Positions 4,227-19,500 of a stretch of 33,713 bases of DNA are shown here, piece by piece. A model generated the notes under the pieces. The model saw nothing but the letters and a program-made list of their open reading frames with translations, was not told where the DNA came from and did not search any database. This stretch comes from Actinomycetota bacterium (GTDB lineage: Bacteria > Actinomycetota > Actinomycetes > Nanopelagicales > Nanopelagicaceae). The first letter of the stretch is position 1; each line of letters starts with the position of its first letter. The stretch is from positions 1 through 33,713 of the forward strand of contig JACPZY010000168.1 in assembly GCA_016195215.1 (NCBI GenBank). The letters run 5' to 3'. The position numbers were made by a program, and so were the translations under genes.

Positions 4227-4298
4227 TGGGGTATGGGGTAATTGGCAGCCCTGCTGATTCTGGTTCAGTAAGTCTAGGTTCGAGTCCTGGTACCCCAG
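4227..4298 (+). tRNA. tRNA-Gln (anticodon CUG)
   Basis: Acceptor TGGGGTA/TACCCCA, anticodon stem-loop GCTGA-TTCTGGT-TCAGT, T-loop GGTTCGAGTCC. Confidence 0.93.
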
Positions 4299-4374
4299 CA
4301 AAAGAAACCAATTTTATTTATCAAGATCATTTTTTGTCCTGTTTATTACTTTGGAACTTTGATACAGTGAAAAT

Positions 4375-5619
4375 ATGAATGACAACCTCTTGGGAATAAT
4401 TGAAAGATATAAAAAAGACCGAGAGTCTGTATATAACACCTGGTTTATTGATAACGAGGAAAGATTAAAAGCCTTCCGAACTATAAGACGCGGTATTTTT
4501 ATGGTTGTTGAATCTATCAAGATGAATAACTTTGGGAATAATTTTAAGGGATCTTCTCTAGAAACCGTTCTTAATTGTATAAGCGAACAGAAGCAAGTTT
4601 TTAGAGGTGCTTATCATCCCTTTTGTTGGAAACCTAAATTGAGAATTCCCGATATCTATGAAAATGAGAAGAATAAAAAAATGTTTGGACAGTTTTTGGA
4701 AAGATGCCTAACGGTTAGCGATGAAGCGAGACTAGTATCGGAAATAATTAAACTTGATCAAGAAAAAATAAAAGGATTAGGTCCTGCAGTTGCAAACATA
4801 CTATATTTCTTACATCCTGCAATATTTCCTCCATTCAATACGGCTATTGTAAAAGGATACAATGCTTTAGTTGGTGAAAGAATAAAGCTTGGCTCATGGA
4901 CTGAATACCTTAAGATGAGAGAGGGATTAGCGAGATTAAACAAAGAATACAGGAATGAGTTGTCAAGCGATTATGGAGCAATTGCAGGTCTTTTATTTGA
5001 AATAGGATCTGGAAAACTACTGATCGAGGATGAAACATTTCTAACAGAAAAAGAAAAAGATGAATTTACGAAAAAAGTGGATCAGAGACATTTGGAAGTA
5101 GCATTAGAAAAGGAGGAAGAAGATTTACATTCAGAGATGCAGTATCATTTATTGAAAATAGGGAAAGCACTCGGATATAACGTTGCTGTTGCTTCAAATG
5201 ATAAATCAAAATCGTATAGGAATAGCCCATTTTCTTCATTCGAACTTTCTAAGATTTCTGGAGATAAAAGTAAAGAGTTAACAACCATTGGCTTAATAGA
5301 TGTGTTATGGCTCAATAAAGATACAAATAAAGTAATTGCTGGATTCGAAGTCGAAAAGAGCACATCAATCTATTCTGGTATTTTGAGATTGTCAGACCTA
5401 TTTCTTTCAGCATTTCAAAATGAAGTTGATCTGTACATTGTAGCTCCTGATTCAAGAGAAAAAGAGGTAACATTTCAATTAAAGAGGCCGTCAATCAAGA
5501 GCAATGGGATTTATCTAAGGTATATTCTTTTTTCAGATTTAAGACAGCACTGTGAATCTATTTGTGCTTTTGGGGAAGACAAATCGACTATCGGAAAAAT
5601 TGCAAAAATTGCATCCTAG
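4375..5619 (+). CDS. Putative PD-(D/E)XK-like nuclease, possible N-terminal HhH-like segment
   Basis: AT-rich ORF with motif IDVLWLNKDTNKVIAGFEVEKSTSIYSGILRLSDL followed by VDLYIVAPDSREKEV; earlier HhH-like IKGLGPAVANILYFLHPAIFPP. Nuclease assignment is by motif impression only. Confidence 0.6.
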   Translation: MNDNLLGIIERYKKDRESVYNTWFIDNEERLKAFRTIRRGIFMVVESIKMNNFGNNFKGSSLETVLNCISEQKQVFRGAYHPFCWKPKLRIPDIYENEKNKKMFGQFLERCLTVSDEARLVSEIIKLDQEKIKGLGPAVANILYFLHPAIFPPFNTAIVKGYNALVGERIKLGSWTEYLKMREGLARLNKEYRNELSSDYGAIAGLLFEIGSGKLLIEDETFLTEKEKDEFTKKVDQRHLEVALEKEEEDLHSEMQYHLLKIGKALGYNVAVASNDKSKSYRNSPFSSFELSKISGDKSKELTTIGLIDVLWLNKDTNKVIAGFEVEKSTSIYSGILRLSDLFLSAFQNEVDLYIVAPDSREKEVTFQLKRPSIKSNGIYLRYILFSDLRQHCESICAFGEDKSTIGKIAKIAS

Positions 5620-5750
5620 GTAGATAAAAGGTGATTTGGCCACAGATTAGCCATTAAGATGCTGACGTTGGCCAAGACTGCCTGCGATGCTACGTAATGA
5701 AGATTTGCCTAGATGGGAAAAGCGGAGGACGATTCACATCTAGGAACTAG

Positions 5751-5823
5751 GGCCCCGTCGTCTAGCGGCCTAGGACTCTGGCTTCTCAAGCCAGCTACGA
5801 GGGTTCGAATCCCTTCGGGGCTA
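5751..5823 (+). tRNA. tRNA-Glu (anticodon CUC)
   Basis: Acceptor GGCCCCG/CGGGGCT, D-arm GTCTAGCGGCCTAGGAC, anticodon stem-loop CTGGC-TTCTCAA-GCCAG, T-arm GAGGGTTCGAATCCCTT. Confidence 0.94.
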
Positions 5824-5839
5824 CTATTGGTTTATTTTG
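5795..5839 (+). repeat. Left copy of 45-bp imperfect direct repeat (tRNA-Glu 3' end plus 16 bp downstream)
   Basis: Ungapped match, 38/45 identical by hand alignment, to 11932-11976. Confidence 0.85.
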
Positions 5840-5953: not shown

Positions 5954-6847
5954 TTGAAAACTTGGATAGTAGTATCGATTGCTTTCGCGCAACTTCTCGG
6001 TTTCGTATCAGTAGTCGTTGCTCTGGCACGACAGGAGACAGCTCCGGGGATAGTAATTGGCGCGATAGTGCTATTAGTCACAATTGCATTATTGATCATC
6101 GGAAACTATCAATGGAGATCCCTTCGCGCGGACATAAATCGAGTACGACTTGTAGCGAGACAGTCAGCTGATCGCTTTCCAATCATTAGCCATGAAATAA
6201 GAACTCCGCTCTCCCTTATAAAAGGTGCTAGTGACCTTTTGCTTGAGGAATCCCCCGGGAAGTTGAATGCGCGACAAAAGGGATTCATGAGGAGCATTAG
6301 TGCCAATTCTATGAACTTAGTGGACCTCGCGGAGGACCTGCTCACTCAAGCTCGTATTGACTCCGGATTATTTACTATGAAAATGGACAGGGTGGATCTG
6401 AGATCCATTTGCCAAGGCATTGTCAAGGAATTGCACAGCGCCCTCCATATAGAAATTGCGTTGGATTCATCTGGCGCTCCACCCAAATTGTGGGTCGACT
6501 CAAAATTGATCAAACAAGCCCTGATAAATTTAATTAACAATGCTGTTAAAGCAAGTCCGGAAGCCTCGATCATCAATGTGAAACTAAGTAGCACGGACTT
6601 TGGTGTGAATATCGTAGTGAGTGACAATGGTTCAGGAATGAATGACGAAGCCCGAGCCAGACTTTTTCAGCGATTTGCGAGCGGCCATCCACTTAGAGAT
6701 GGGACGGGCCTAGGTCTGGTGATAACGAAGGAAATTGCTGAAATGCACGGGGGAACTTTATTTGTCGATACGGTTATGGGAAAGGGTACAACTATTATTA
6801 TGTCGCTACCAAATATAGTGAAAGCCAACGTGGATGAGCAATCTTGA
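5954..6847 (+). CDS. Membrane sensor histidine kinase (HisKA/HATPase_c)
   Basis: Two TM helices, H-box FPIISHEIRTPLSLIKG, N-box NLINNAVKAS, G-boxes VSDNGSGM and GTGLGLVITKEIAEMHGG; TTG start. Confidence 0.93.
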   Translation: MKTWIVVSIAFAQLLGFVSVVVALARQETAPGIVIGAIVLLVTIALLIIGNYQWRSLRADINRVRLVARQSADRFPIISHEIRTPLSLIKGASDLLLEESPGKLNARQKGFMRSISANSMNLVDLAEDLLTQARIDSGLFTMKMDRVDLRSICQGIVKELHSALHIEIALDSSGAPPKLWVDSKLIKQALINLINNAVKASPEASIINVKLSSTDFGVNIVVSDNGSGMNDEARARLFQRFASGHPLRDGTGLGLVITKEIAEMHGGTLFVDTVMGKGTTIIMSLPNIVKANVDEQS

Positions 6848-7541
6848 TCCAAAACCTTCGGTTCTTATCGTAGATGACGAAATTCAGATGCTCGAGATAA
6901 TTTCTTTTGCTTTGGAAACACAGGGTTTCAACACATCCACCGCAATGAGTGCGATGCAGGCGATGGAACTTTTCGAGAAAGTTAACTACGAAATCCTTAT
7001 CTTGGACGTAATGCTTCCAGATTTCAGTGGGACGTGGGTGTGCAATCAAGTCAGGCAAGTCTCAAATGTGCCGATTATTATGCTGACGGCCAAAGGCGAA
7101 GTTGCTGATCGCGTTGTAGGTTTGGAAGCTGGTGCCGATGATTACGTGGTGAAACCTTTTCATCCTAGAGAGCTTGCCTTGAGAGCTCAGGCGATTGTGA
7201 AGAGAAGCCGCGAAAATCAACGAACGGGCGTTGTGCATCTAGGTTGGTTGGTCATCGACCCCAAGAATGCGACAGTAATGCTCAGAGGACATCGAGTTTC
7301 GCTCTCTCAGAGTGAATTCCGACTTCTCATGGTCTTGACTTTGAATGTTGGCGAAGTCATGGGCGTTGAATATCTCTTACGCGAGGTTTGGGGTGTGGAA
7401 TCGTTAGTGGGTGGAAGGGAGATGGTAAAGACGGCCATATATCGCCTTCGGATAAAACTAGGTGACAGCGTTACCGCACCAGTTTTCATCCAGACAGTGC
7501 GTGGAAAGGGTTACCGAATGACTCGAGGAGACCCGGCTTAA
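6834..7541 (+). CDS. OmpR/PhoB-family response regulator
   Basis: PSVLIVDDEIQMLEII, LILDVMLPDFSG, LTAKGEVADRVVGLEAGADDYVVKPFHPRELALR; winged-helix C-terminus ending FIQTVRGKGYRM. Overlaps the kinase end. Confidence 0.95.
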   Translation: MSNLDPKPSVLIVDDEIQMLEIISFALETQGFNTSTAMSAMQAMELFEKVNYEILILDVMLPDFSGTWVCNQVRQVSNVPIIMLTAKGEVADRVVGLEAGADDYVVKPFHPRELALRAQAIVKRSRENQRTGVVHLGWLVIDPKNATVMLRGHRVSLSQSEFRLLMVLTLNVGEVMGVEYLLREVWGVESLVGGREMVKTAIYRLRIKLGDSVTAPVFIQTVRGKGYRMTRGDPA

Positions 7542-7694
7542 ATCCGCAGGTCGCGAGCACAGTCGAAGGTCACGGAACTGTGACCGTAATTCTCCTTAAA
7601 TCCCTTCTTATAAATAGGTCTGTTAGTTACCTTCCTCTTGAGTAAGGGTTTTTAAGGCCAGACCAGGTCCCTTTGAGAGTGAGGATTTGAAAGC

Positions 7695-8846
7695 ATGACT
7701 AAATTACGAATCACAACTATGGCAAGTATGGCGGTGATGATCCTTTCACTCAGCGGCTTGGTCATATCCCCGGCGGATGCAGCTGTTGATCGTTCAGGCA
7801 AAGTGTGCGTTCAGGAGGGCATGGTGGTGAGTTCCGGTGGAGTGACAAACACCTGTGCGAAAACCGACAAAGGCCTCTTCTACACTCCATCTAGAAAGTT
7901 GAGCGGATCCCTCACGGTTGTATGTGGGGCGACGGAGGCTTGGTGTGGGGCAATGACTAAGGCATTCACCAATAAGACTGGGGTAAATACGAAATTTGTC
8001 CGGCTCTCGTCTGGCGAAACAGTGGCTCGTTTAGATGCCGCAAAGAATAATCCAGAGTTCGATGTGTGGCACGGTGGACCAGCAGATGGTTTCGGAGTAG
8101 CAAGGATCGGAAACCTCATCGAAAAGTATCTATCCCCTACTCGAAATATGATTCCCGCGAAATACCAAGACACTGACGGATATTGGACCGGCGTTTATGT
8201 TGGGGCTCTCGGATTTTGCTCCAATACCAAAGAGCTCAAGCGGCTCGGAGTGGCCGTTCCAAGAAGTTGGGCGGACCTCCTTAATCCGAAACTCAAGCGC
8301 CAGATTTCAACTGCTCATCCTTCGACTTCAGGCACTGCTTTTACGACCCTTTGGACGCAAGTCACCCGTTTGGGATCCGAGGAAGCGGGTATTGCATACA
8401 TGAAGAAACTACATAACAATATTCTTCAATACACCAAAAGTGGTGTCGGCCCAGTTCAGATTGTTGGACGTGGAGAAGCAGCAATAGGTATCGTGTTCTC
8501 GCATGATTGCGTTGCTGGTGCCGAACAAGGTTTGCCACTCAAGGTCTCCTTTCCATCAGAGGGTACAGGGTACGAAATTGGTGGAGTCGCCCTCGTGAAA
8601 GGTGCGAAAAATCCGGAAGCCGCAAAAGCCTATATCGATTTTGCACTGTCGGCTGAGGCTCAAAATTTGGGGCCAACCGTGGCGGCATATCAAGTTTTAA
8701 CAAATCCACGAACAAAACTTGATAGGAGAATGGTGGCACTGAAGAAATTGGCTATTGTCAATTACGACTTCGAGAAGGCGGCCGCATCAAAGAAAGCCCT
8801 GACGGCTAGATTTGATAGCGAAGTAGCAGTTGCACCAAAAGTTTAA
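7695..8846 (+). CDS. ABC transporter substrate-binding protein, AfuA/FbpA type
   Basis: Signal peptide, then LTVVCGATEAWCGAMTKAFTNKTGVNTKFVRLSSGETVARLDAAKNNPEFDVWHGGPADGF...HPSTSGTAFTTLWTQ...VFSHDCVAGAEQGLPL. Confidence 0.88.
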   Translation: MTKLRITTMASMAVMILSLSGLVISPADAAVDRSGKVCVQEGMVVSSGGVTNTCAKTDKGLFYTPSRKLSGSLTVVCGATEAWCGAMTKAFTNKTGVNTKFVRLSSGETVARLDAAKNNPEFDVWHGGPADGFGVARIGNLIEKYLSPTRNMIPAKYQDTDGYWTGVYVGALGFCSNTKELKRLGVAVPRSWADLLNPKLKRQISTAHPSTSGTAFTTLWTQVTRLGSEEAGIAYMKKLHNNILQYTKSGVGPVQIVGRGEAAIGIVFSHDCVAGAEQGLPLKVSFPSEGTGYEIGGVALVKGAKNPEAAKAYIDFALSAEAQNLGPTVAAYQVLTNPRTKLDRRMVALKKLAIVNYDFEKAAASKKALTARFDSEVAVAPKV

Positions 8847-8874
8847 TCTCACTCCCAAAGTTTGATGACCGCTT

Positions 8875-8924
8875 GAGAATTCTGAGGGTTTATGGAATGG
8901 GTTTCCTAAACCTTCAGAATTCTC
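8875..8924. repeat. 18-bp inverted repeat, one mismatch, 14-nt loop
   Basis: GAGAATTCTGAGGGTTTA (8875-8892) / TAAACCTTCAGAATTCTC (8907-8924). Confidence 0.9.
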
Positions 8925-8944
8925 ACCGTGAGGAGAAACTAAAC

Positions 8945-10684
8945 GTGATTGATGTGACCGTTCCTAGAGTTGTGAAGAAACTGAGAAACCCCATGAGAAG
9001 TAGTTCAAAGGTTCGCCTGGATCGAGTTACGAGATTCGTTCTGTGGTTCACCCTCGCTCTTCTGGCAATGCTTATCATCTTTCCATTGGGGAATATTTTG
9101 GTCACGGCCTCCCGCGAGAGTGGAAGGGAAGTATTTGCTGCGCTCTTTTCGTCGTCGGTGACTCAGCAGATCGTAAAGAATACGATTTTGTTAGGCGTTA
9201 CCGTGGGCCTTTTAGGAACATCTATCGGCTTCTTATTCGCCTATGCACAAACGCGACTTGAGTTCCGTGGTAAAAGGATTCTTCACATCATTAGTCTCGT
9301 CCCTCTTATATCACCGCCATTTGCCTTTGCGACCGCCATTATTATTCTTTTCGGTCGAAGTGGCATCATTACCCGCGACTTGCTGGGGTTGAGTCCTATC
9401 CTTTATGGCTTTCCAGGACTCGTAATAGTTCTGACCACCTCATTCTTCCCGGTTGCGTATATGAACATACTTGGAATGATGCGCAGTTTGGACCCCTCCC
9501 TTGATGAGGCCGCATCGATACTAGGCGCTTCTAAGTTCAGGGTCTTTGTGAAAGTCACCCTACCCATGCTCATCCCCGGAATCGCGAGCTCCTTTCTCCT
9601 TCTATTTGTGGAATCTATCGCAGACCTGGCAAATCCTCTGGTAATCGGGGGAGATTTCACTGTGCTTTCATCGCGTGCTTACATTGCGATCAACGGGGAC
9701 TATGACGTTGCAGCTGGCGCGGCATATTCGGTCGTTTTGCTCATACCCGGTCTTCTTGTTTTTCTACTGCAGCGGTATTGGGCTCAACGTAGAAATATCG
9801 TTTCTGTCACTGGCAAACCATCTGGTCGAATAAGTCCGGTAGAATCAAAATCTGCGAAAATTGCTTTGTTGGCGGTACCTTTTACAGTCTCATTTCTTAT
9901 AGTGCTCGTGTACATAACGGTTATTGTCGGTGGTTTTGTGAAGGTACTCGGTGTAAACAACACCTTGACGATGGAGCACTATTCCTATGTTTTTAGTGGA
10001 ATCGGCAACGAAGCTATATTCAAGACAACTTTGCTAGCTCTCATTGCTACGCCACTAGCCGGAATTTTCGGAATGATTCTGGCCTGGCTAATAGTGAGAA
10101 AAATTCGACGGGGACGACAGGCGATGGACTTCTTGGGGATGTTAGGAATTGCCGTCCCTGGCACAGTACTAGGTATCGGATATGCAGTGACCTTCAATCA
10201 CACTACCAAACTTGGCAATTTCGGAATTGTGCCACAACTTGCTGGTGGGGGTGCAATTTTCGGTGGTGCACTCGCAATCATTATGGTTTACACAATTCGT
10301 TCTAGTCCAGCGGGGCAACGTTCGGGTATCGCCGCGCTGCAACAGATTGATCCGGCGATAGATGAAGCTGCATCCTCGCTGGGCGCTTCTGGCGTAGTTA
10401 CATTCCGGAAGATCACGCTTCCACTTATTCGGGGAGCACTTCTCACTGGTCTTATGTTTGCTTTTGCGCGTTCAATGACGACGCTCTCTCCAATTATCTT
10501 TATCACAACACCAGATACACCTATCATGACGTCCAGAATCCTCTCCGAAGTCGATGGAGGACGATTTGGAAATGCTTTCGCTTTCAGCTCGATTCTCATC
10601 GTCCTTGTCCTGATCGCCTTGGGAGTGATCAATCTCTTCGTCAAAGGCCGACCCACTCTCTCCCTTACCACCCCAATTGACTGA
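8945..10684 (+). CDS. ABC transporter two-domain permease, FbpB/AfuB type
   Basis: Two BPD_transp-type domains with EAA loops (DEAASILGASKFRVFVKVTLPML; DEAASSLGASGVVTFRKITLPLI). GTG at 8945 has AGGAG upstream; the listed TTG at 8873 would run through the hairpin. Confidence 0.92.
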   Translation: MIDVTVPRVVKKLRNPMRSSSKVRLDRVTRFVLWFTLALLAMLIIFPLGNILVTASRESGREVFAALFSSSVTQQIVKNTILLGVTVGLLGTSIGFLFAYAQTRLEFRGKRILHIISLVPLISPPFAFATAIIILFGRSGIITRDLLGLSPILYGFPGLVIVLTTSFFPVAYMNILGMMRSLDPSLDEAASILGASKFRVFVKVTLPMLIPGIASSFLLLFVESIADLANPLVIGGDFTVLSSRAYIAINGDYDVAAGAAYSVVLLIPGLLVFLLQRYWAQRRNIVSVTGKPSGRISPVESKSAKIALLAVPFTVSFLIVLVYITVIVGGFVKVLGVNNTLTMEHYSYVFSGIGNEAIFKTTLLALIATPLAGIFGMILAWLIVRKIRRGRQAMDFLGMLGIAVPGTVLGIGYAVTFNHTTKLGNFGIVPQLAGGGAIFGGALAIIMVYTIRSSPAGQRSGIAALQQIDPAIDEAASSLGASGVVTFRKITLPLIRGALLTGLMFAFARSMTTLSPIIFITTPDTPIMTSRILSEVDGGRFGNAFAFSSILIVLVLIALGVINLFVKGRPTLSLTTPID

Positions 10685-10727
10685 GGGCATCGAAACTATG
10701 ACTGGCGCCAAACAAAGGAGCAAATAG

Positions 10728-11885
10728 ATGTCCAAGACCTCGCAATATTCTGCGGCTAGTAATGGCTCTTCAACTGAAGAATCGGAGTCCAGCCGTCTTG
10801 AATTAATCAATTTATCAAAGGAATTTGGCCAAGGCTCTGAGCGCGTAATCGCGGTTGATAATATTAATTTGAGCATTCACCCAGGAGAATTTCTCACTTT
10901 GCTTGGACCTTCTGGCTGCGGTAAAACAACTACCTTGAGAATGATTGCCGGTTTTGAACGTCCCAGCTCTGGCGAAATTCTCCTGGATGATCAGGATATG
11001 AGTAAGTTGACTCCAGATCGTCGTCCAATGGGAATGGTTTTTCAATCGTACGCACTCTTCCCTCATATGAGTGTTTATGAGAATGTTGCTTTCGGCTTGA
11101 AAATAAAGAAACTTCCTGCAAAACAGATTGAACAGGAAGTCGGATTTGTCTTGGCCACCATGAGTCTGCAATTCCTAGCTAATCGCGCGCCACATCAGCT
11201 TTCTGGGGGCCAACAGCAGAGAGTTGCTCTAGCGAGGGCGATGGTTACCCGTCCTAAGGTTCTGCTTTTCGACGAACCGCTTAGTAACCTGGACGCCAAA
11301 CTTCGCGCGCAAATGCGGATTGAGATTCGCCAGTTGCAGCAGCGTCTGGGAATTACGAGTATTTTTGTGACTCACGATCAAGATGAAGCGATGAGCATTT
11401 CTGATCGAATCGTTGTCATGAGAAATGCTCAAATTGAGCAAGTTGGCGCACCAGCGGAGATTTATCTTCATCCAAAAGGCATATTTGTCGCTGATTTTGT
11501 TGGAAGATCAAATTTTCTCGCGGTAGATAAGGTGCATGCTAAGAAGAAGTCAGGCAAGGTTGCAATAAGGGTTCTGGGTAAGGATTTAGAGGTTGAAGCG
11601 CATGAGAGTGCCCTGCAGGCCTCCGCGCCGGTGCTTCTCATACGCCCCGAGTCCATCCGTGTTTCCAAATCCAAGTCGGAGGCGACGACAATTTCTGGCA
11701 CAGATGGACGCGTACTCAATGTGGTCTTTTATGGCGAACACGTTGAATACTCGATAGAGACGGAAAAGGGGAATCTTGTAGCTGTCGTCTCGGATCCAAA
11801 ATACGATGAAATCGTCCCGATCGGACAAATGGCTGAATTTTCCTTCGATCAAGAGAGAGCATGGCTGCTCCCGGCTGACGCCTAG
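10728..11885 (+). CDS. ABC transporter ATPase, FbpC/AfuC (PotA-like) type
   Basis: Walker A LGPSGCGKTTTLRM, signature LSGGQQQRVALARA, Walker B VLLFDEPLSNLDAKLR, C-terminal TOBE-like region. Confidence 0.95.
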   Translation: MSKTSQYSAASNGSSTEESESSRLELINLSKEFGQGSERVIAVDNINLSIHPGEFLTLLGPSGCGKTTTLRMIAGFERPSSGEILLDDQDMSKLTPDRRPMGMVFQSYALFPHMSVYENVAFGLKIKKLPAKQIEQEVGFVLATMSLQFLANRAPHQLSGGQQQRVALARAMVTRPKVLLFDEPLSNLDAKLRAQMRIEIRQLQQRLGITSIFVTHDQDEAMSISDRIVVMRNAQIEQVGAPAEIYLHPKGIFVADFVGRSNFLAVDKVHAKKKSGKVAIRVLGKDLEVEAHESALQASAPVLLIRPESIRVSKSKSEATTISGTDGRVLNVVFYGEHVEYSIETEKGNLVAVVSDPKYDEIVPIGQMAEFSFDQERAWLLPADA

Positions 11886-12488: not shown

Positions 12489-12887
12489 ATGCCCATTGCA
12501 CATTACCGCCATCCGACAATTGACTGTCCAGATCCGCTTGCTCTTGCGAAGTTTTATGCTTCGCTGGCAGATTTGGAAATTGAAGATCTGAAGGATTTTC
12601 CGCTGGAGAAAATCACCTGGCTCACCCTGCAAGATAAAGATGGGCGATCCGTTCTGGCTTTTGCCAAGGTGGAGAACTATCTTGCACCGACGTGGCCAGA
12701 GGGCGATGTTCCGCAACAGGCACATCTGGAATTTAGTGTGCTAGACCTTGATGTGGCCGAGGCGGCGGCAATATCAATAGGAGCGCGGAAGGCAGAGTTC
12801 CAACCCGGAGAAGATTTTCGAGTTTACTTCGACCCCGTTGGGCATCCGTTCTGTCTCATCCTGAATTACTCGGGAATCAATACTTAA
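12489..12887 (+). CDS. VOC/glyoxalase-like family protein
   Basis: DCPDPLALAKFYASLADLE ... HLEFSVLDLDVAEAAAISIGARK ... VYFDPVGHPFCL. Confidence 0.88.
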   Translation: MPIAHYRHPTIDCPDPLALAKFYASLADLEIEDLKDFPLEKITWLTLQDKDGRSVLAFAKVENYLAPTWPEGDVPQQAHLEFSVLDLDVAEAAAISIGARKAEFQPGEDFRVYFDPVGHPFCLILNYSGINT

Positions 12888-13617
12888 CTTTCTCCCACCC
12901 AGGGCGCGCCTTGCTGCTGCCAGCATTGGTACGTCCGTCGCGAGTTCTGTAAATAATCGGCGGTCGGAAGAGATACCCGATTGGCGCACTCATCGCATGC
13001 ACCAGACGCGTGAATGGCCAGATGATAAAGAGGAGCATGCCCAGTACTGCGTGAATTCTGAAAGGGAGGGGGGTCTGAGCCATCAGAGTTCCATCCGGTT
13101 GGAGAAAGAGAATGGACCTAAACCAAGGTGAGACAGTTTCGCGATAATTACTTGCTCTGCCGATAACCCCAGCGCCTGAAAGAGTTGCAACGCCTCCTGC
13201 AAGCAGAGTGGCCAGAAGAAATAAGTACATCGTTTTGTCATTCTTCGTTGTTGCTGCAAAGACTGTGGCTGTGGTCCGACGTCTGTAAATAAGAAGGATG
13301 ATTCCAAGAACCGTCGCGACCCCAGCGAATCCACCCATTGTGATTGCGCCAATGTGATATGTCTCCTGGCTAATTCCAATTGTTTCTGTCCACTCTTTTG
13401 GAATTAGGAGTCCGACGATATGACCTCCGATCACCGCAAAGAGTCCAAGGTGGAAGAGTGGCCCGGCAATGCTAAGAAGTCGACCTTCATAGATTTGGGA
13501 TGAGCGTGTTGTCCAACTAAATTTGTCATACCGGTACCGCCAGATCAGACCAATGACGAAGGATCCAATGGCAATGTATGGAAGTACTGACCAGAGCAAT
13601 ATATCTAACGAGCTCAT
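12877..13617 (-). CDS. narI: Respiratory nitrate reductase gamma subunit
   Basis: Multi-TM cytochrome b type with spaced histidines (GPLFHLGLFAVIGGHIVGLL; RIHAVLGMLLFIIWPFTRLVHAMSAP); end of narGHJI. Confidence 0.94.
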   Translation of the reverse strand: MSSLDILLWSVLPYIAIGSFVIGLIWRYRYDKFSWTTRSSQIYEGRLLSIAGPLFHLGLFAVIGGHIVGLLIPKEWTETIGISQETYHIGAITMGGFAGVATVLGIILLIYRRRTTATVFAATTKNDKTMYLFLLATLLAGGVATLSGAGVIGRASNYRETVSPWFRSILFLQPDGTLMAQTPLPFRIHAVLGMLLFIIWPFTRLVHAMSAPIGYLFRPPIIYRTRDGRTNAGSSKARPGWEKVKY

Positions 13618-14261
13618 ACGCGAACTCCATCTGCTACTAGGGCTGAGTTTGATGAGAAAGGTTCGAGTGCAATGGTGATTGCGCCGCTAAGGCCAACAAA
13701 TTCTTGTGGCGGCCCATTGAGTGCGATAGCGCGTGCTCGCTCGGCGATGGCAGGAGTCATCGGTGCCAAAGTCTCGACAACGGCGTCTAATACAGAGGCA
13801 TAGAAGGAACCAGCTGAATGGAGCGCATCTCTAATTAATTCAATCGGTGCTCGGTGTTCGGCAAGAAGGAGTGCTCCTTCAATGGGATCCACCAGTGCTG
13901 CAAATTCAAGTACCACGGCGAGATGATCTGGAAGTTCCTCATCTGTAAGAGTAATTCCTACTGATTTATAGACCTCTTTGAAGTAGAGAAGTGCCATGCC
14001 TCGATTTCGTGTATCTCCGTGTGTCCACGAGGTAAGGAAGAGAGAGCAGCGACGGCGCATGTCAAAGATCTCGACATAGTGACGTTGGATCTCATCCAAT
14101 GCCATCGCCTCTATCGTTGAAAAAAAAGTGACGAAGGATGCACCGGCCGGGCTGCCAATATCTAGAGACATCGACTTCAACTCTTCCCGTCTTGCCAGGA
14201 ACCGCTCATCTGGGTAGACCAGGAGTGAGGACGCGATCATCTGAATTCTGGCGGTATTCAC
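13614..14261 (-). CDS. narJ: Nitrate reductase assembly chaperone
   Basis: FFSTIEAMALDEIQRHYVEIFDMRRRCSLFLTSWTHGDTRNRGMALL; probable GTG start at 14261 overlapping the narH stop. Confidence 0.92.
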   Translation of the reverse strand: MNTARIQMIASSLLVYPDERFLARREELKSMSLDIGSPAGASFVTFFSTIEAMALDEIQRHYVEIFDMRRRCSLFLTSWTHGDTRNRGMALLYFKEVYKSVGITLTDEELPDHLAVVLEFAALVDPIEGALLLAEHRAPIELIRDALHSAGSFYASVLDAVVETLAPMTPAIAERARAIALNGPPQEFVGLSGAITIALEPFSSNSALVADGVRV

Positions 14262-15817
14262 TTTGTCTGCCGATCTCTCATTATTTGGAAGTTCTCGATT
14301 GTGACGGGCACAGGGTTTCCTGAGGAGCGACCAAAAGGACCACCGCCCATCGCTTCTACTCCATCGATTCCATCCAACGAACAACCAAGGTGATCCAACT
14401 CTCTGGCCTGCTCGGTGTGAGCTGCGGGGATGACATACCTGTCCTCGTATTTTGCGATTGCGAGGAGTCGGTACATCTCGTAAATGTTCTCTTGGTCCAT
14501 TCCAACTGCTTCAGGAATTTCTGGTCGAGGCTCGCGACCCAAGTTGATATCTCGCATATATGAGCGCATCGCCGAGAGTTTTCGAAGCGTGCCAGTGACT
14601 ACATCAACATCTCCGGCAGAGAATAGTTCGGCCAGGTATTCGATTGGGATACGGAGGGCTTCTATCGCTCCAAATAGATTTCCTGCTTCCTCGCCATCGT
14701 GTCCCGTCTCCGTGAGGACATCAACTATGGGCGATAGGGGAGGTACGTACCAGACCATTGGCATGGTCCGATACTCAGGGTGCAGTGGAAGTGCAATTTT
14801 GTAAATCTTCGCCAATTTGTAAACTGGTGATTTTTGCGCGGCGATTAGCCAATCCTCTGGAATTCCCTCGGCACGTGCCGCTGTCAATACTTCTGGATCG
14901 TATGGATCGAGCATCAGATCCAGTTGAGTTTGGTAGAGATCTTGATCGTTCTCTACCGATGCGGCTTCCAAAACCTTATCTGCATCGTAAAGAAAGAGCC
15001 CGAGATAACGCAGACGCCCAACACAGGTCTCTGAACATACGGTTGGCAATCCGATTTCAAGTCGGGGGTAGCACATCGTGCACTTCTCGGCTTTGCCTGT
15101 TTTATGGTTGAAGTAGATCTTCTTATAAGGACAGGCCGAGACACACATCCGCCAGCCCTTGCACTGCTGCTGGTCGACGAGAACGATTCCGTCCTCTGCC
15201 CTTTTGTAGATTGCGCCCGATGGGCAAGCGGCAACACAAGCTGGGTTGAGGCAATGTTCGCAGATGCGTGGAAGGTAGAACATGAAGGTCTCTTCAAAAG
15301 CGAGTTTTACCTTTGTTGTTACATCTTCGGCAAGTTTTTGAAGTATGGGGTCTTTCTCGATATTTTCAGGGCCTCCTCCGAGGTCGTCATCCCAGTTTGC
15401 CGACCACTCGATTTTCATCGGCTTGCCAGTGAGCAGTGACTTTGGTCGCGCAACTGGAGTCTGTTCTCCTAGTGGCGCGCTAATCAAATTGTCGTACTCA
15501 TATGTCCATGGTTCGTAGTAATCCTTGATGTTGAGCATTCTTGGATTGGAGAAGATGGAGAGCAGGCGACGGGCTTTACTGCCGCTCTTAAGACGGAGCC
15601 TGCCGCCACGTGTGCGAACCCATCCTCCCTTTGCTTTCTCTTGATCCTCATATCGCCTTGGATAGCCCTGACCTGGACGGGTCTCTACATTGTTAAACCA
15701 GGCGTACTCAAGACCGGAGCGATTTGTCCATGCGTGCTTACACGTCACCGAACATGTGTGGCACCCGATGCACTTATCAAGGTTCATCACCATGCCCATT
15801 TGGGCCATAACCTTCAT
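14258..15817 (-). CDS. narH: Respiratory nitrate reductase beta subunit
   Basis: Fe-S clusters: DKCIGCHTCSVTCKHAWTNR, CEHCLNPACVAACPSGAIYKR, QQCKGWRMCVSACPYKKIYFN, EKCTMCYPRLE. Confidence 0.97.
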   Translation of the reverse strand: MKVMAQMGMVMNLDKCIGCHTCSVTCKHAWTNRSGLEYAWFNNVETRPGQGYPRRYEDQEKAKGGWVRTRGGRLRLKSGSKARRLLSIFSNPRMLNIKDYYEPWTYEYDNLISAPLGEQTPVARPKSLLTGKPMKIEWSANWDDDLGGGPENIEKDPILQKLAEDVTTKVKLAFEETFMFYLPRICEHCLNPACVAACPSGAIYKRAEDGIVLVDQQQCKGWRMCVSACPYKKIYFNHKTGKAEKCTMCYPRLEIGLPTVCSETCVGRLRYLGLFLYDADKVLEAASVENDQDLYQTQLDLMLDPYDPEVLTAARAEGIPEDWLIAAQKSPVYKLAKIYKIALPLHPEYRTMPMVWYVPPLSPIVDVLTETGHDGEEAGNLFGAIEALRIPIEYLAELFSAGDVDVVTGTLRKLSAMRSYMRDINLGREPRPEIPEAVGMDQENIYEMYRLLAIAKYEDRYVIPAAHTEQARELDHLGCSLDGIDGVEAMGGGPFGRSSGNPVPVTIENFQIMRDRQTK

Positions 15818-18800
15818 TAGTACTCCACATTCTGGGATCGGCGACGGATCACGGTGACTTCATCGCGTTGATTTCCGGTTGGTCCTAGATAGTTGAAAGC
15901 AAAGGTGAGCTGCGCATACCCCCCGATGAGGTGAGTTGGTTTTAACATCAGACGGGTGAGCGAATTATGGATTCCACCGCGCTTGCCTGAGGTTTCTGCA
16001 AGAGGGACGTCGACAACACGGTCTTTTGCGTGATACATAAAAACGGTCCCCGTCGGCATTCGGTGGGAAACACATGCTCGTGCGACGACCACTCCGTTCC
16101 GGTTGTACGCCTCAATCCACTCGTTATCCTTGACGCCGATTGTCTGGGCATCTTCAACACTCATCCATATCTCTTGTCCACCTCGCGAGAGGGAAAGCAT
16201 GAAGAGGTTATCTTGGTATTCCGAGTGAATTGACCATTTCGAGTGAGGTGTGAGGTAGCGAACCGTCACTTCTTTCTCGACACCGTCGGCCTGATTGCCA
16301 AAGATCCGGTGCATATTGAGGGGCGGTCGGAAGACTGGAAGTTGTTCGCCCAGTTCGCTCATCCAGTCGTGATCGACAAAGAAATGTTGCCGTCCCGTCA
16401 ATGTATGCCAGGGTTTGAGTCTTTCGACATTGATGGCAAAGGCGGTGTAACGCCGACCACCGTGTTCTGATCCTGACCATTCTGGACTCGTAATAACTGG
16501 AACAGGCCTTGCCTGTGTGTCGGCGAAAGTTATTCGTTTGCCCTCATTATCAAGAGCCAGGTCAGTTAATTTCTGTCCGGTTCGTTTTTCGAGTGCTCTA
16601 AATCCGGCCACAGCAACTCTCCCATTTGTTGTGCCAGAAAGGGCGAGTATTGCTTCGCAAGCATCCATATCCCGAGCAAGCGAAGGTCTGCCAGCGGCAA
16701 CACCGTGAGAAATCACGCCGTTGGTCCGACCCAGAAGTTCAACTTCTTGAAGGACGGTGACAGGGACACCTTTTGTATTCGTTCCGAGTTGGTCGATCAG
16801 TGGTCCAAGGGCTGCCATCTTCTCGCCAATGTGGGTGTAATCCCTTTTAACAACAACCAGCTTGGGCATTGTGGATCCAGGTATCGGCTCTACCTCACCC
16901 TTATGCCAATCAAGTACCACTCCGCCTGGATTTGCCATCGCATCTGGAGTGTCATGCATAAGAGGTACGACGACTAGGTCTTCTCGTTCACCAAGATGCC
17001 CCTTGGCCTGTTCTGAAACTTGGCGGCCAAGCATCTGGAAGATTTCATAATCTGTCTTTGTCTCCCACGGCGGATTGATTGCCGGTGTAAATGCATGGAC
17101 AAATGGATGCATATCTGTGCTGGAGAGATCGTGCTTCTCATACCACGTGGCAGCGGGAAGCAAGATATCTCCAAAGAGACCTGTGCTTGTCATGCGGAAA
17201 TCAATGGAGACGAGGAGATCTAATTTTCCTTCAGGTGCATCTTCAACCCAGTCGACATCTCGTGGACGATTTTCGGGAGCATTCTCCTCTGCCCGAACTG
17301 AGTTACTCGTTCCCAGTAGGTGTTTGAGAAAGTACTCGTTTCCTTTACTTGACGAACCCAAGATGTTGGCACGCCAAACGGTGAGTACGCGAGGCCAGTT
17401 CTCAGGCGCATCTGGATTTTCAATGGCGAATTTAAGATCACCGGATTTGAGTTGATTAACGACGTGAGTTGCGGGTTCGATACCCATGGCACGCGCTTCA
17501 TCAACAAGATCGAGGGAATTTCGATTGAGTGATGGGTACGAAGGCATCCATCCCATCCGAGCAGATTGTGCAAGTACATCAATCGCACTCATATCTTTGA
17601 AGCGACCTTCGCCAAGGGGAGTGGCCAATAATTCTGAGCCCAGTGCGTCGTAGCGCCACTGATCTGTTGAGACGTACCAGAAGGCGGTACCAATCATCTG
17701 GCGCGCAGGACGGGACCAGTCAGCACCGAAAGCTAATTGCGCCCAGCCGGTGACGGGACGACATTTCTCCTGACCAACATAATGCGCCCAACCTCCCCCA
17801 TTGACTCCTTCGCAGCCGGTGAGTGTTACAAGAGCGAGGAATGTGCGATACATCGTGTCGGAGTGGAACCAGTGGTTTGTGCCTGCGCCAAGAAGAATCA
17901 TCGAGCGACCCTCGGAATCCACGGCATTCTGAGCGAATTCGCGAGCAATGCGAATTGCTTGGACGGCAGGAACGCTTGTTATCTCCTCTTGCCAGGCAGG
18001 AGTGTAAGGAGTTAAGTCCTCGTAATCGCTGGGCCATTCACCGGCAAGACCTTCGCGAGCGACTCCATACTGTGCCAGCATCAGGTCATAAACAGTTGTG
18101 ACTTTCTTATCTCCGATTTGGACAGTGGGTACACCTCTACGGAGGACTCCACCACTTTCAGATTCTTTCTGTCCCATATCAAAGCGGGGCATAAGGACTT
18201 CGTCCACTGTCGATCCAGAAGTTCCAAAGACCGTGAGTGATGGATCTACACCTTCAAGATCGAGATTCCATTTGCCCATGGAAGAGTCGTTGTAGCGGTG
18301 TCCAAGTGAGCCATTTGGCACAAAGGTCTCTCCATTACTGGAATCAAGCATGACGGTCTTGAATTTGGCGCCCTCGGATGTGTCACCAAGATCAGAGGCG
18401 ACTAGGAATTTGTCCGGTACATACGAGCCATCTTTCTCCCGAAGAGTAACGAGATAGGGAAGGTCGGTGTATTTCTTCACATAATCTTGGAAGCGAGGAA
18501 TCTGCTTATCAACGAAGAATTCCTTAAGGATGACATGTCCCATAGCCATGCCAAGTGCGCCGTCAGTGCCCGGATGTGGTGCCACCCATTCATCAGCGAA
18601 CTTGGTGTTATCTGCATAATCTGGACTGATCGCGATCACTTTCTGTCCGCGGTAGCGACCTTCCGTCATGAAGTGAGCATCTGGTGTGCGCGTCACTGGA
18701 ACATTGGAGCCCCACATGATGAGGTATGAAGAGTTAAACCAATCTGCCGATTCGGGAACATCGGTCTGATCACCGAAGACTTGCGGTGATGCCACTGGCA

Positions 18801-19500
18801 AATCCGCATACCAGTCGTAGAAGGAGAGCATCGCCCCACCCATCAGTGAGATAAAACGTGCACCTGCTGCATGTGATGCCATAGACATTGCGGGGATCGG
18901 AGAGAAGCCAAAGACGCGGTCAGGTCCGTATTTCTTAATCGTATGTACGTGTGCTGCCGCAATTATCTCTGAAATCTCGCCCCAGTTTGCGCGGACGAGT
19001 CCACCCTTGCCTCGGGCTTGGTGATACCGAGCCCTATGTGCGGGGTTGTCTACAACATCGGCCCAAGCAAGGACGGGATCACGGAGGCGTGACTTGGCCT
19101 CTCGGTACATCTCAAGTAGGACTCCGCGGATATAAGGAAAACGGATTCGAGTGGGCGAATATGTGTACCAGGAGAATGCTGCCCCGCGCGGACATCCGCG
19201 TGGTTCGTACTCTGGTGAATCTGGACCGACGGAGGGATAATCAGTTTGTTGTGTTTCCCATGTAATGATTCCGTCTTTTACATAGACCTTCCACGAACAC
19301 GATCCGGTGCAGTTAACACCGTGTGTTGACCTAACAACTTTGTCATGACTCCAACGATCTCTGTAAAAGATATCTCCAGCACGCCCACCACTTTTGGTAA
19401 TACTGCGAAGGTCTTTCGAGACTTCCCCTCTGGAAAAGAATCTTCCGAGTTTGATAAGAGCGTCTTCAGGATCTGTACGTGGCGCACTCTGTTTCTTCAT
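15817..19500 (-). CDS. narG: Respiratory nitrate reductase alpha subunit (Mo-bisMGD)
   Basis: 1227 aa; STHGVNCTGSCSWKVYVKDGIITWETQQTDYPS, RGCPRGAAFSWYTYSP, YADLPVASPQVFGDQTDVPESADWFNSSYLIMWGSN. Confidence 0.97.
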   Translation of the reverse strand: MKKQSAPRTDPEDALIKLGRFFSRGEVSKDLRSITKSGGRAGDIFYRDRWSHDKVVRSTHGVNCTGSCSWKVYVKDGIITWETQQTDYPSVGPDSPEYEPRGCPRGAAFSWYTYSPTRIRFPYIRGVLLEMYREAKSRLRDPVLAWADVVDNPAHRARYHQARGKGGLVRANWGEISEIIAAAHVHTIKKYGPDRVFGFSPIPAMSMASHAAGARFISLMGGAMLSFYDWYADLPVASPQVFGDQTDVPESADWFNSSYLIMWGSNVPVTRTPDAHFMTEGRYRGQKVIAISPDYADNTKFADEWVAPHPGTDGALGMAMGHVILKEFFVDKQIPRFQDYVKKYTDLPYLVTLREKDGSYVPDKFLVASDLGDTSEGAKFKTVMLDSSNGETFVPNGSLGHRYNDSSMGKWNLDLEGVDPSLTVFGTSGSTVDEVLMPRFDMGQKESESGGVLRRGVPTVQIGDKKVTTVYDLMLAQYGVAREGLAGEWPSDYEDLTPYTPAWQEEITSVPAVQAIRIAREFAQNAVDSEGRSMILLGAGTNHWFHSDTMYRTFLALVTLTGCEGVNGGGWAHYVGQEKCRPVTGWAQLAFGADWSRPARQMIGTAFWYVSTDQWRYDALGSELLATPLGEGRFKDMSAIDVLAQSARMGWMPSYPSLNRNSLDLVDEARAMGIEPATHVVNQLKSGDLKFAIENPDAPENWPRVLTVWRANILGSSSKGNEYFLKHLLGTSNSVRAEENAPENRPRDVDWVEDAPEGKLDLLVSIDFRMTSTGLFGDILLPAATWYEKHDLSSTDMHPFVHAFTPAINPPWETKTDYEIFQMLGRQVSEQAKGHLGEREDLVVVPLMHDTPDAMANPGGVVLDWHKGEVEPIPGSTMPKLVVVKRDYTHIGEKMAALGPLIDQLGTNTKGVPVTVLQEVELLGRTNGVISHGVAAGRPSLARDMDACEAILALSGTTNGRVAVAGFRALEKRTGQKLTDLALDNEGKRITFADTQARPVPVITSPEWSGSEHGGRRYTAFAINVERLKPWHTLTGRQHFFVDHDWMSELGEQLPVFRPPLNMHRIFGNQADGVEKEVTVRYLTPHSKWSIHSEYQDNLFMLSLSRGGQEIWMSVEDAQTIGVKDNEWIEAYNRNGVVVARACVSHRMPTGTVFMYHAKDRVVDVPLAETSGKRGGIHNSLTRLMLKPTHLIGGYAQLTFAFNYLGPTGNQRDEVTVIRRRSQNVEY

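Follow-up and report, generated by a model that had tools for sequence, protein, structure and literature searches.

The protein described here is encoded in a 33,713-nucleotide stretch of DNA (hereafter the window), and its nearest described counterpart is CopL (Rmet_6120) of Cupriavidus metallidurans CH34, a full-length member of the same family. The copL gene lies in the cop cluster of plasmid pMOL30, whereas the window gene is unlinked to copper genes. A transcription start has been reported at position 181983, 14 bp upstream of Rmet_6120 (PMC9045368). The start site and promoter of copL carry the conserved motif of the cop cluster, and acute copper did not induce the gene in one study (PMC7563307). 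It has also been listed among the cop genes responsive to a metal mix (PMC11647585), went undetected in one proteome (PMC11647595) and was described as encoding a cys-rich cytosolic protein (PMC7563307). The homologue that we found on pMOL30 (RMET_RS30570, 180704-181969, minus strand) is 46% identical to the window protein at 99% coverage, and since its coordinates and start site agree with those reported, it is copL/Rmet_6120. With about 5 Cys in 421 aa, its sequence does not support the 'cys-rich' label. The CopL of Xanthomonas is a different, short copper-binding protein. The family thus already has a named member, the uncharacterised cop-cluster gene copL, and so the original prediction's candidate for an undescribed system belongs to a family that is not wholly undescribed.

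Other described proteins resemble parts of the window protein. HhH-GPD DNA glycosylases such as Tm1821 (Ogg2), SsOgg and MutY have a fold that the model of its N-terminal half resembles, and its GLGPAxAN hairpin lies in the HhH register of the glycosylases; unlike them, it has a nuclease-like domain fused behind this part and, by eye, other residues at the two diagnostic positions. The D...ExE and SGxxR motifs of its C-terminal domain are common to the proteins matched by the PADLOC REase_II profile, including a group of nucleases that have an EVE-like N-terminus in place of the HhH-GPD-like one and no Cu-ATPases nearby. EVE domains read modified bases. The nearest full-length folds are the type II restriction endonucleases EcoT38I and BsaWI (E about 0.04), from which the window protein differs in having no partner methyltransferase and an extra N-terminal domain. 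A type II endonuclease gene next to a copper cluster in Methylorubrum extorquens AM1 has been interpreted as a restriction-modification (RM) remnant (PMC9948745).

A single gene between two tRNA genes

The window gene (4375..5619, plus strand) encodes a CopL-type protein of 414 aa that has full-length homologues at 40-63% identity and keeps all invariant residues of a 21-member alignment. It is the sole gene between tRNA-Gln (CTG; 4227..4299, plus strand) on the left and tRNA-Glu (CTC; 5751..5824, plus strand) on the right. Its GC content is 0.34 and its GC3 0.27, against 0.45-0.51 and 0.44-0.52 in the neighbouring genes, and the 1-kb GC profile dips to 0.34 at this gene. Only 71 bp separate the two tRNA genes in the closest sampled member of the genus (G016; GltX 92% identical), indicating that the gene was gained in the window genome; the AT-rich insert of the original prediction is thereby confirmed. 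The gap measures 20-66 bp in six other relatives, and in six further relatives of the genus (L049, L054, L059, L060, L062 and L065) it holds a different small YCII-like ORF. As its contents differ among relatives, being empty, a YCII-like ORF or the window gene, the site is variable. The acquired single-gene segment spans roughly 4300..5700 (plus strand; GC 0.34). The last ~50 bp 5' of tRNA-Glu (about 5701-5750) are host sequence, since they match an empty-site relative at 84%.

The gene was found in none of the other 20 genus members searched. It is foreign, recently acquired and an intact ORF. At neither tRNA was an integrase or a clear att repeat detected, no promoter scored above chance, and the only RNA families found were the tRNAs. 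One of the six YCII-like-ORF loci carries an additional ArsR-like HTH ORF.

Gene content also varies 3' of tRNA-Glu, as a comparison with G016, G015 and G013 shows. In the window, a histidine kinase, a response regulator and an iron(III)-type ABC transporter (5954-11885) lie between tRNA-Glu and a DinB-like gene; in G016 (L082) an XRE/HEPN-like pair occupies this place, and G015 and G013 (L083, L050) have none of these genes. Farther along, a nitrate reductase-like cluster (12877-19500, minus strand) comprises a large subunit, an iron-sulfur subunit, a chaperone and a membrane subunit, and is followed by nitrate/nitrite transporter-like genes.

Predicted domain architecture

The C-terminal part (residues 235-414; 5077..5616, plus strand) is a PD-(D/E)XK nuclease-like domain, as indicated by its PADLOC match and by its order of strands and helices. 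The window protein matches PADLOC REase_II (PDLC03534) with E=9.6e-6 over residues 250-376, and the profile is matched by 21/21 family members, with a best E-value of 6.9e-15. The putative catalytic core D309...E325-V-E327 (5299..5355, plus strand) falls within IDVLW (residues 308-312) and FEVEKSTSIYSGILRLSDL (residues 324-342). D309, E325 and E327 are invariant in all 21 aligned sequences and are also kept in distant relatives that share the nuclease domain only, including the EVE-linked ones. In the AF2 model, strands at 269-272, 310-313 and 319-326, a helix at 332-345 and a strand at 352-358 reproduce the alpha-beta-beta-beta-alpha-beta core topology of the PD-(D/E)XK superfamily. The full-length model reached only a modest pLDDT of 73.5 and a pTM of 0.54, and its best Foldseek matches, EcoT38I and BsaWI, are weak. 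From the model and the conserved residues, the C-terminal half is predicted to act as a nuclease of the PD-(D/E)XK superfamily, with D...ExE as its active site.

The N-terminal domain (residues 1-219; 4375..5031, plus strand) is all-helical. Modelled alone with AF2, the N-terminal half reached a pLDDT of 81.7 and a pTM of 0.82, and its best 15 Foldseek matches in the PDB are all HhH-GPD DNA glycosylases. The top match is the Tm1821 8-oxoguanine glycosylase (prob 0.90, TM 0.48/0.50, E=0.26), followed by MutY and SsOgg; Foldseek E-values were weak throughout (0.04-0.3). The HhH hairpin and the segment after it, IKGLGPAVANILYFLHPAIFPPFN (residues 132-155; 4768..4839, plus strand), were delimited from the 21-member alignment, the motif table and Nth motifs; residues 132-153 of this segment read IKGLGPAVANILYFLHPAIFPP. 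Its IKGLGPAVAN motif is in the same register as the glycosylase hairpin LPGVGRKTAN. When the register is set by eye, N155, invariant in the 21 sequences, occupies the position of the glycosylase catalytic Asp, and the HhH Lys of the glycosylases is replaced by Ala. HHalign of the N-terminal half against Nth-type profiles gave a probability of 0.1%, Pfam PF00730 had no match in the window protein, and Pfam and NCBIfam scans returned nothing credible. Since profile comparison did not confirm the homology, the HhH-GPD assignment is one of fold and motif only. PDB sequence-profile matches to viral spike proteins were dropped as chance helical matches. Judging from the modelled fold, the N-terminal module probably inspects or flips bases, and from its sequence it seems to be without the glycosylase catalytic residues.

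No DNA methyltransferase is evident beside the nuclease in the 33.7-kb window, and none is annotated in the homologue neighbourhoods seen. In its structural particulars, namely an ExE variant of the PD-(D/E)XK fold, an HhH-like N-terminal half and the absence of a methyltransferase partner, the original prediction is supported.

Family distribution and copper-cluster linkage

Full-length homologues, 40-63% identical over about 410 residues, occur in five phyla: Bacteroidota, Pseudomonadota, Bacillota, Cyanobacteria and Actinomycetota. The family matches 183 plasmid records, at least 80% of the protein being covered in 173 of them; none of 50,697 phage records matched. A viral fold search yielded only generic nuclease-like or low-TM matches. 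By identity, the nearest relatives of the window protein are cyanobacterial plasmid genes (63%). A partial relative in G334 is 66% identical, and its contig also bears what by eye is a P-type ATPase fragment. Many homologues are annotated as 'type II restriction endonuclease', a label that is probably misleading.

Around the homologues lie genes for copper ATPases, multicopper oxidases, CusA/CzcA pumps and CopY/CueR regulators, along with the small families DUF305, DUF2933 and DUF3347. We tested this linkage by comparing the positions of Cu-ATPases (TIGR01511) relative to the family gene with random placement. A Cu-ATPase lay no more than 10 kb from the family gene on 15/22 plasmids, which were selected for taxonomic spread and not at random (5.0 expected, P=1e-6), and in 10/19 genomes (0.26 expected, P=1e-14), where close relationships among several Bacteroidota genomes leave fewer independent cases than the P-value implies. 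By comparison, none of about 21 distant relatives that have just the nuclease domain in common with the family had a Cu-ATPase within 15 kb (Fisher P=9e-6). On the same plasmids, 16/40 strong Cu-type ATPases lay within 10 kb, against 1/32 weaker-scoring P1B ATPases (P=2e-4), and the link is thus to copper more than to metals generally. In Runella, the start codon of the homologue overlaps the end of the upstream gene within a run of mer and copper genes. We read the family as a mobile accessory of copper-resistance clusters across phyla. The linkage to copper could reflect co-mobilisation instead of function.

The window copy departs from this pattern. It is related to CopL over its full length, but its contig, which is the whole window, has no Cu-ATPase, no copper genes are evident among the window ORFs, and the Cu-ATPases of the host genome are located on other contigs. 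It is an orphan copy of the CopL family, unlinked to copper genes, and may either function by itself or be a transient acquisition.

Among the distant relatives, the same nuclease domain follows an EVE-like N-terminus whose EVE matches are weak and below the Pfam cut-off; no EVE domain was matched in any of the 21 family members. Such EVE-like fusions are found at L095:9272-10384, L096:8757-9872, L098:9007-10101, L094:553-1659 and L101:8414-9700. These proteins have the appearance of modification-dependent restriction enzymes. Near the first of them lie a cytosine DNA methyltransferase-like ORF and further large ORFs, an arrangement resembling a modification-dependent defence locus. As the same nuclease domain is found behind both EVE-like and glycosylase-like modules, a base reader joined to a nuclease appears to be a recurring design.

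Possible functions

Our leading explanation, which we hold tentatively and at somewhat short of even chances, is that CopL-family proteins incise damaged DNA under copper stress. It is favoured by the copper linkage together with the resemblance to 8-oxoguanine and MutY-type glycosylases. The family gene would be expressed together with the copper regulon, the N-terminal module would recognise aberrant bases, such as oxidised guanine arising from copper stress, and the nuclease domain would incise the DNA at the recognised base. Damage recognition, an advantage in the presence of copper and whatever role the unlinked window copy may have are inferred, as is the nuclease activity. The original prediction proposed a stand-alone defence gene, but the homologues sit in copper-resistance clusters and not in defence islands, and a role of the window gene in copper or DNA-damage stress is likelier than one in stand-alone defence against phages. 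Accounts of copper resistance usually centre on efflux, oxidation and sequestration; a copper-linked nuclease with a glycosylase-like reader would add DNA protection to these. The wider proposal, that a glycosylase-fold lesion reader joined to a restriction-type nuclease is a widespread, unrecognised component of copper resistance that incises oxidised DNA, is possible but on balance doubtful. The damage-nuclease reading, if true, would give copL a testable role.

Modification-dependent (type IV-like) restriction, in which the N-terminal module would read modified bases on incoming DNA for the nuclease to cut, is the main rival and a strong one, though on balance less likely than not; on this view, shared residence on plasmids explains why the gene accompanies metal-resistance cargo. 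The REase_II match throughout the family, the nuclease domain held in common with EVE-like proteins (one of them, L095, near a methyltransferase-like ORF) and the 183 plasmid records all accord with it, and it would require no cognate methyltransferase. Against it, the linkage is specifically to copper genes, is seen on chromosomes and plasmids alike and is lacking in the EVE-type relatives, and copL belongs to the cop cluster and has its promoter motif; moreover, the annotated loci show no defence-gene neighbourhood except at L073 (dsDNA nuclease, HipA). If restriction is the function instead, the family would exemplify a defence nuclease carried specifically alongside copper genes. A remnant or solitary type II enzyme carried as selfish cargo would fit the annotation of many homologues and the reading of the AM1 copper-cluster endonuclease as an RM remnant (PMC9948745), a likeness by description only. 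We consider it improbable, as the catalytic and N-terminal residues do not vary over five phyla, unlike those of decaying remnants, no adjacent methyltransferase is annotated in the neighbourhoods seen, and toxicity would be expected of a type II enzyme on its own. Least probable of all is a non-nuclease DNA-binding regulator or sensor: the family gene does sit among copper regulators and efflux genes, but in its protein D309, E325 and E327 never vary, and the strands follow the order found in active PD-(D/E)XK enzymes.

Compatible with each of these explanations, the window copy itself could be a chance acquisition under no selection. Its absence from the other 20 genus members searched, its host-atypical composition and the lack of linked copper genes point in this direction; the ORF is intact and every invariant residue is kept, and we regard such an origin as unlikely.

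Elsewhere in the family, copies interrupted by a frameshift or stop are present in Neobacillus muris (L010:6001-7219) and G344 (L085:11781-12446), both near P-type ATPases, which indicates that the family gene can decay. On a Hymenobacter plasmid (L073:10274-14023), a 1249-aa protein with a dsDNA nuclease domain and a HipA toxin come closely after the family gene.
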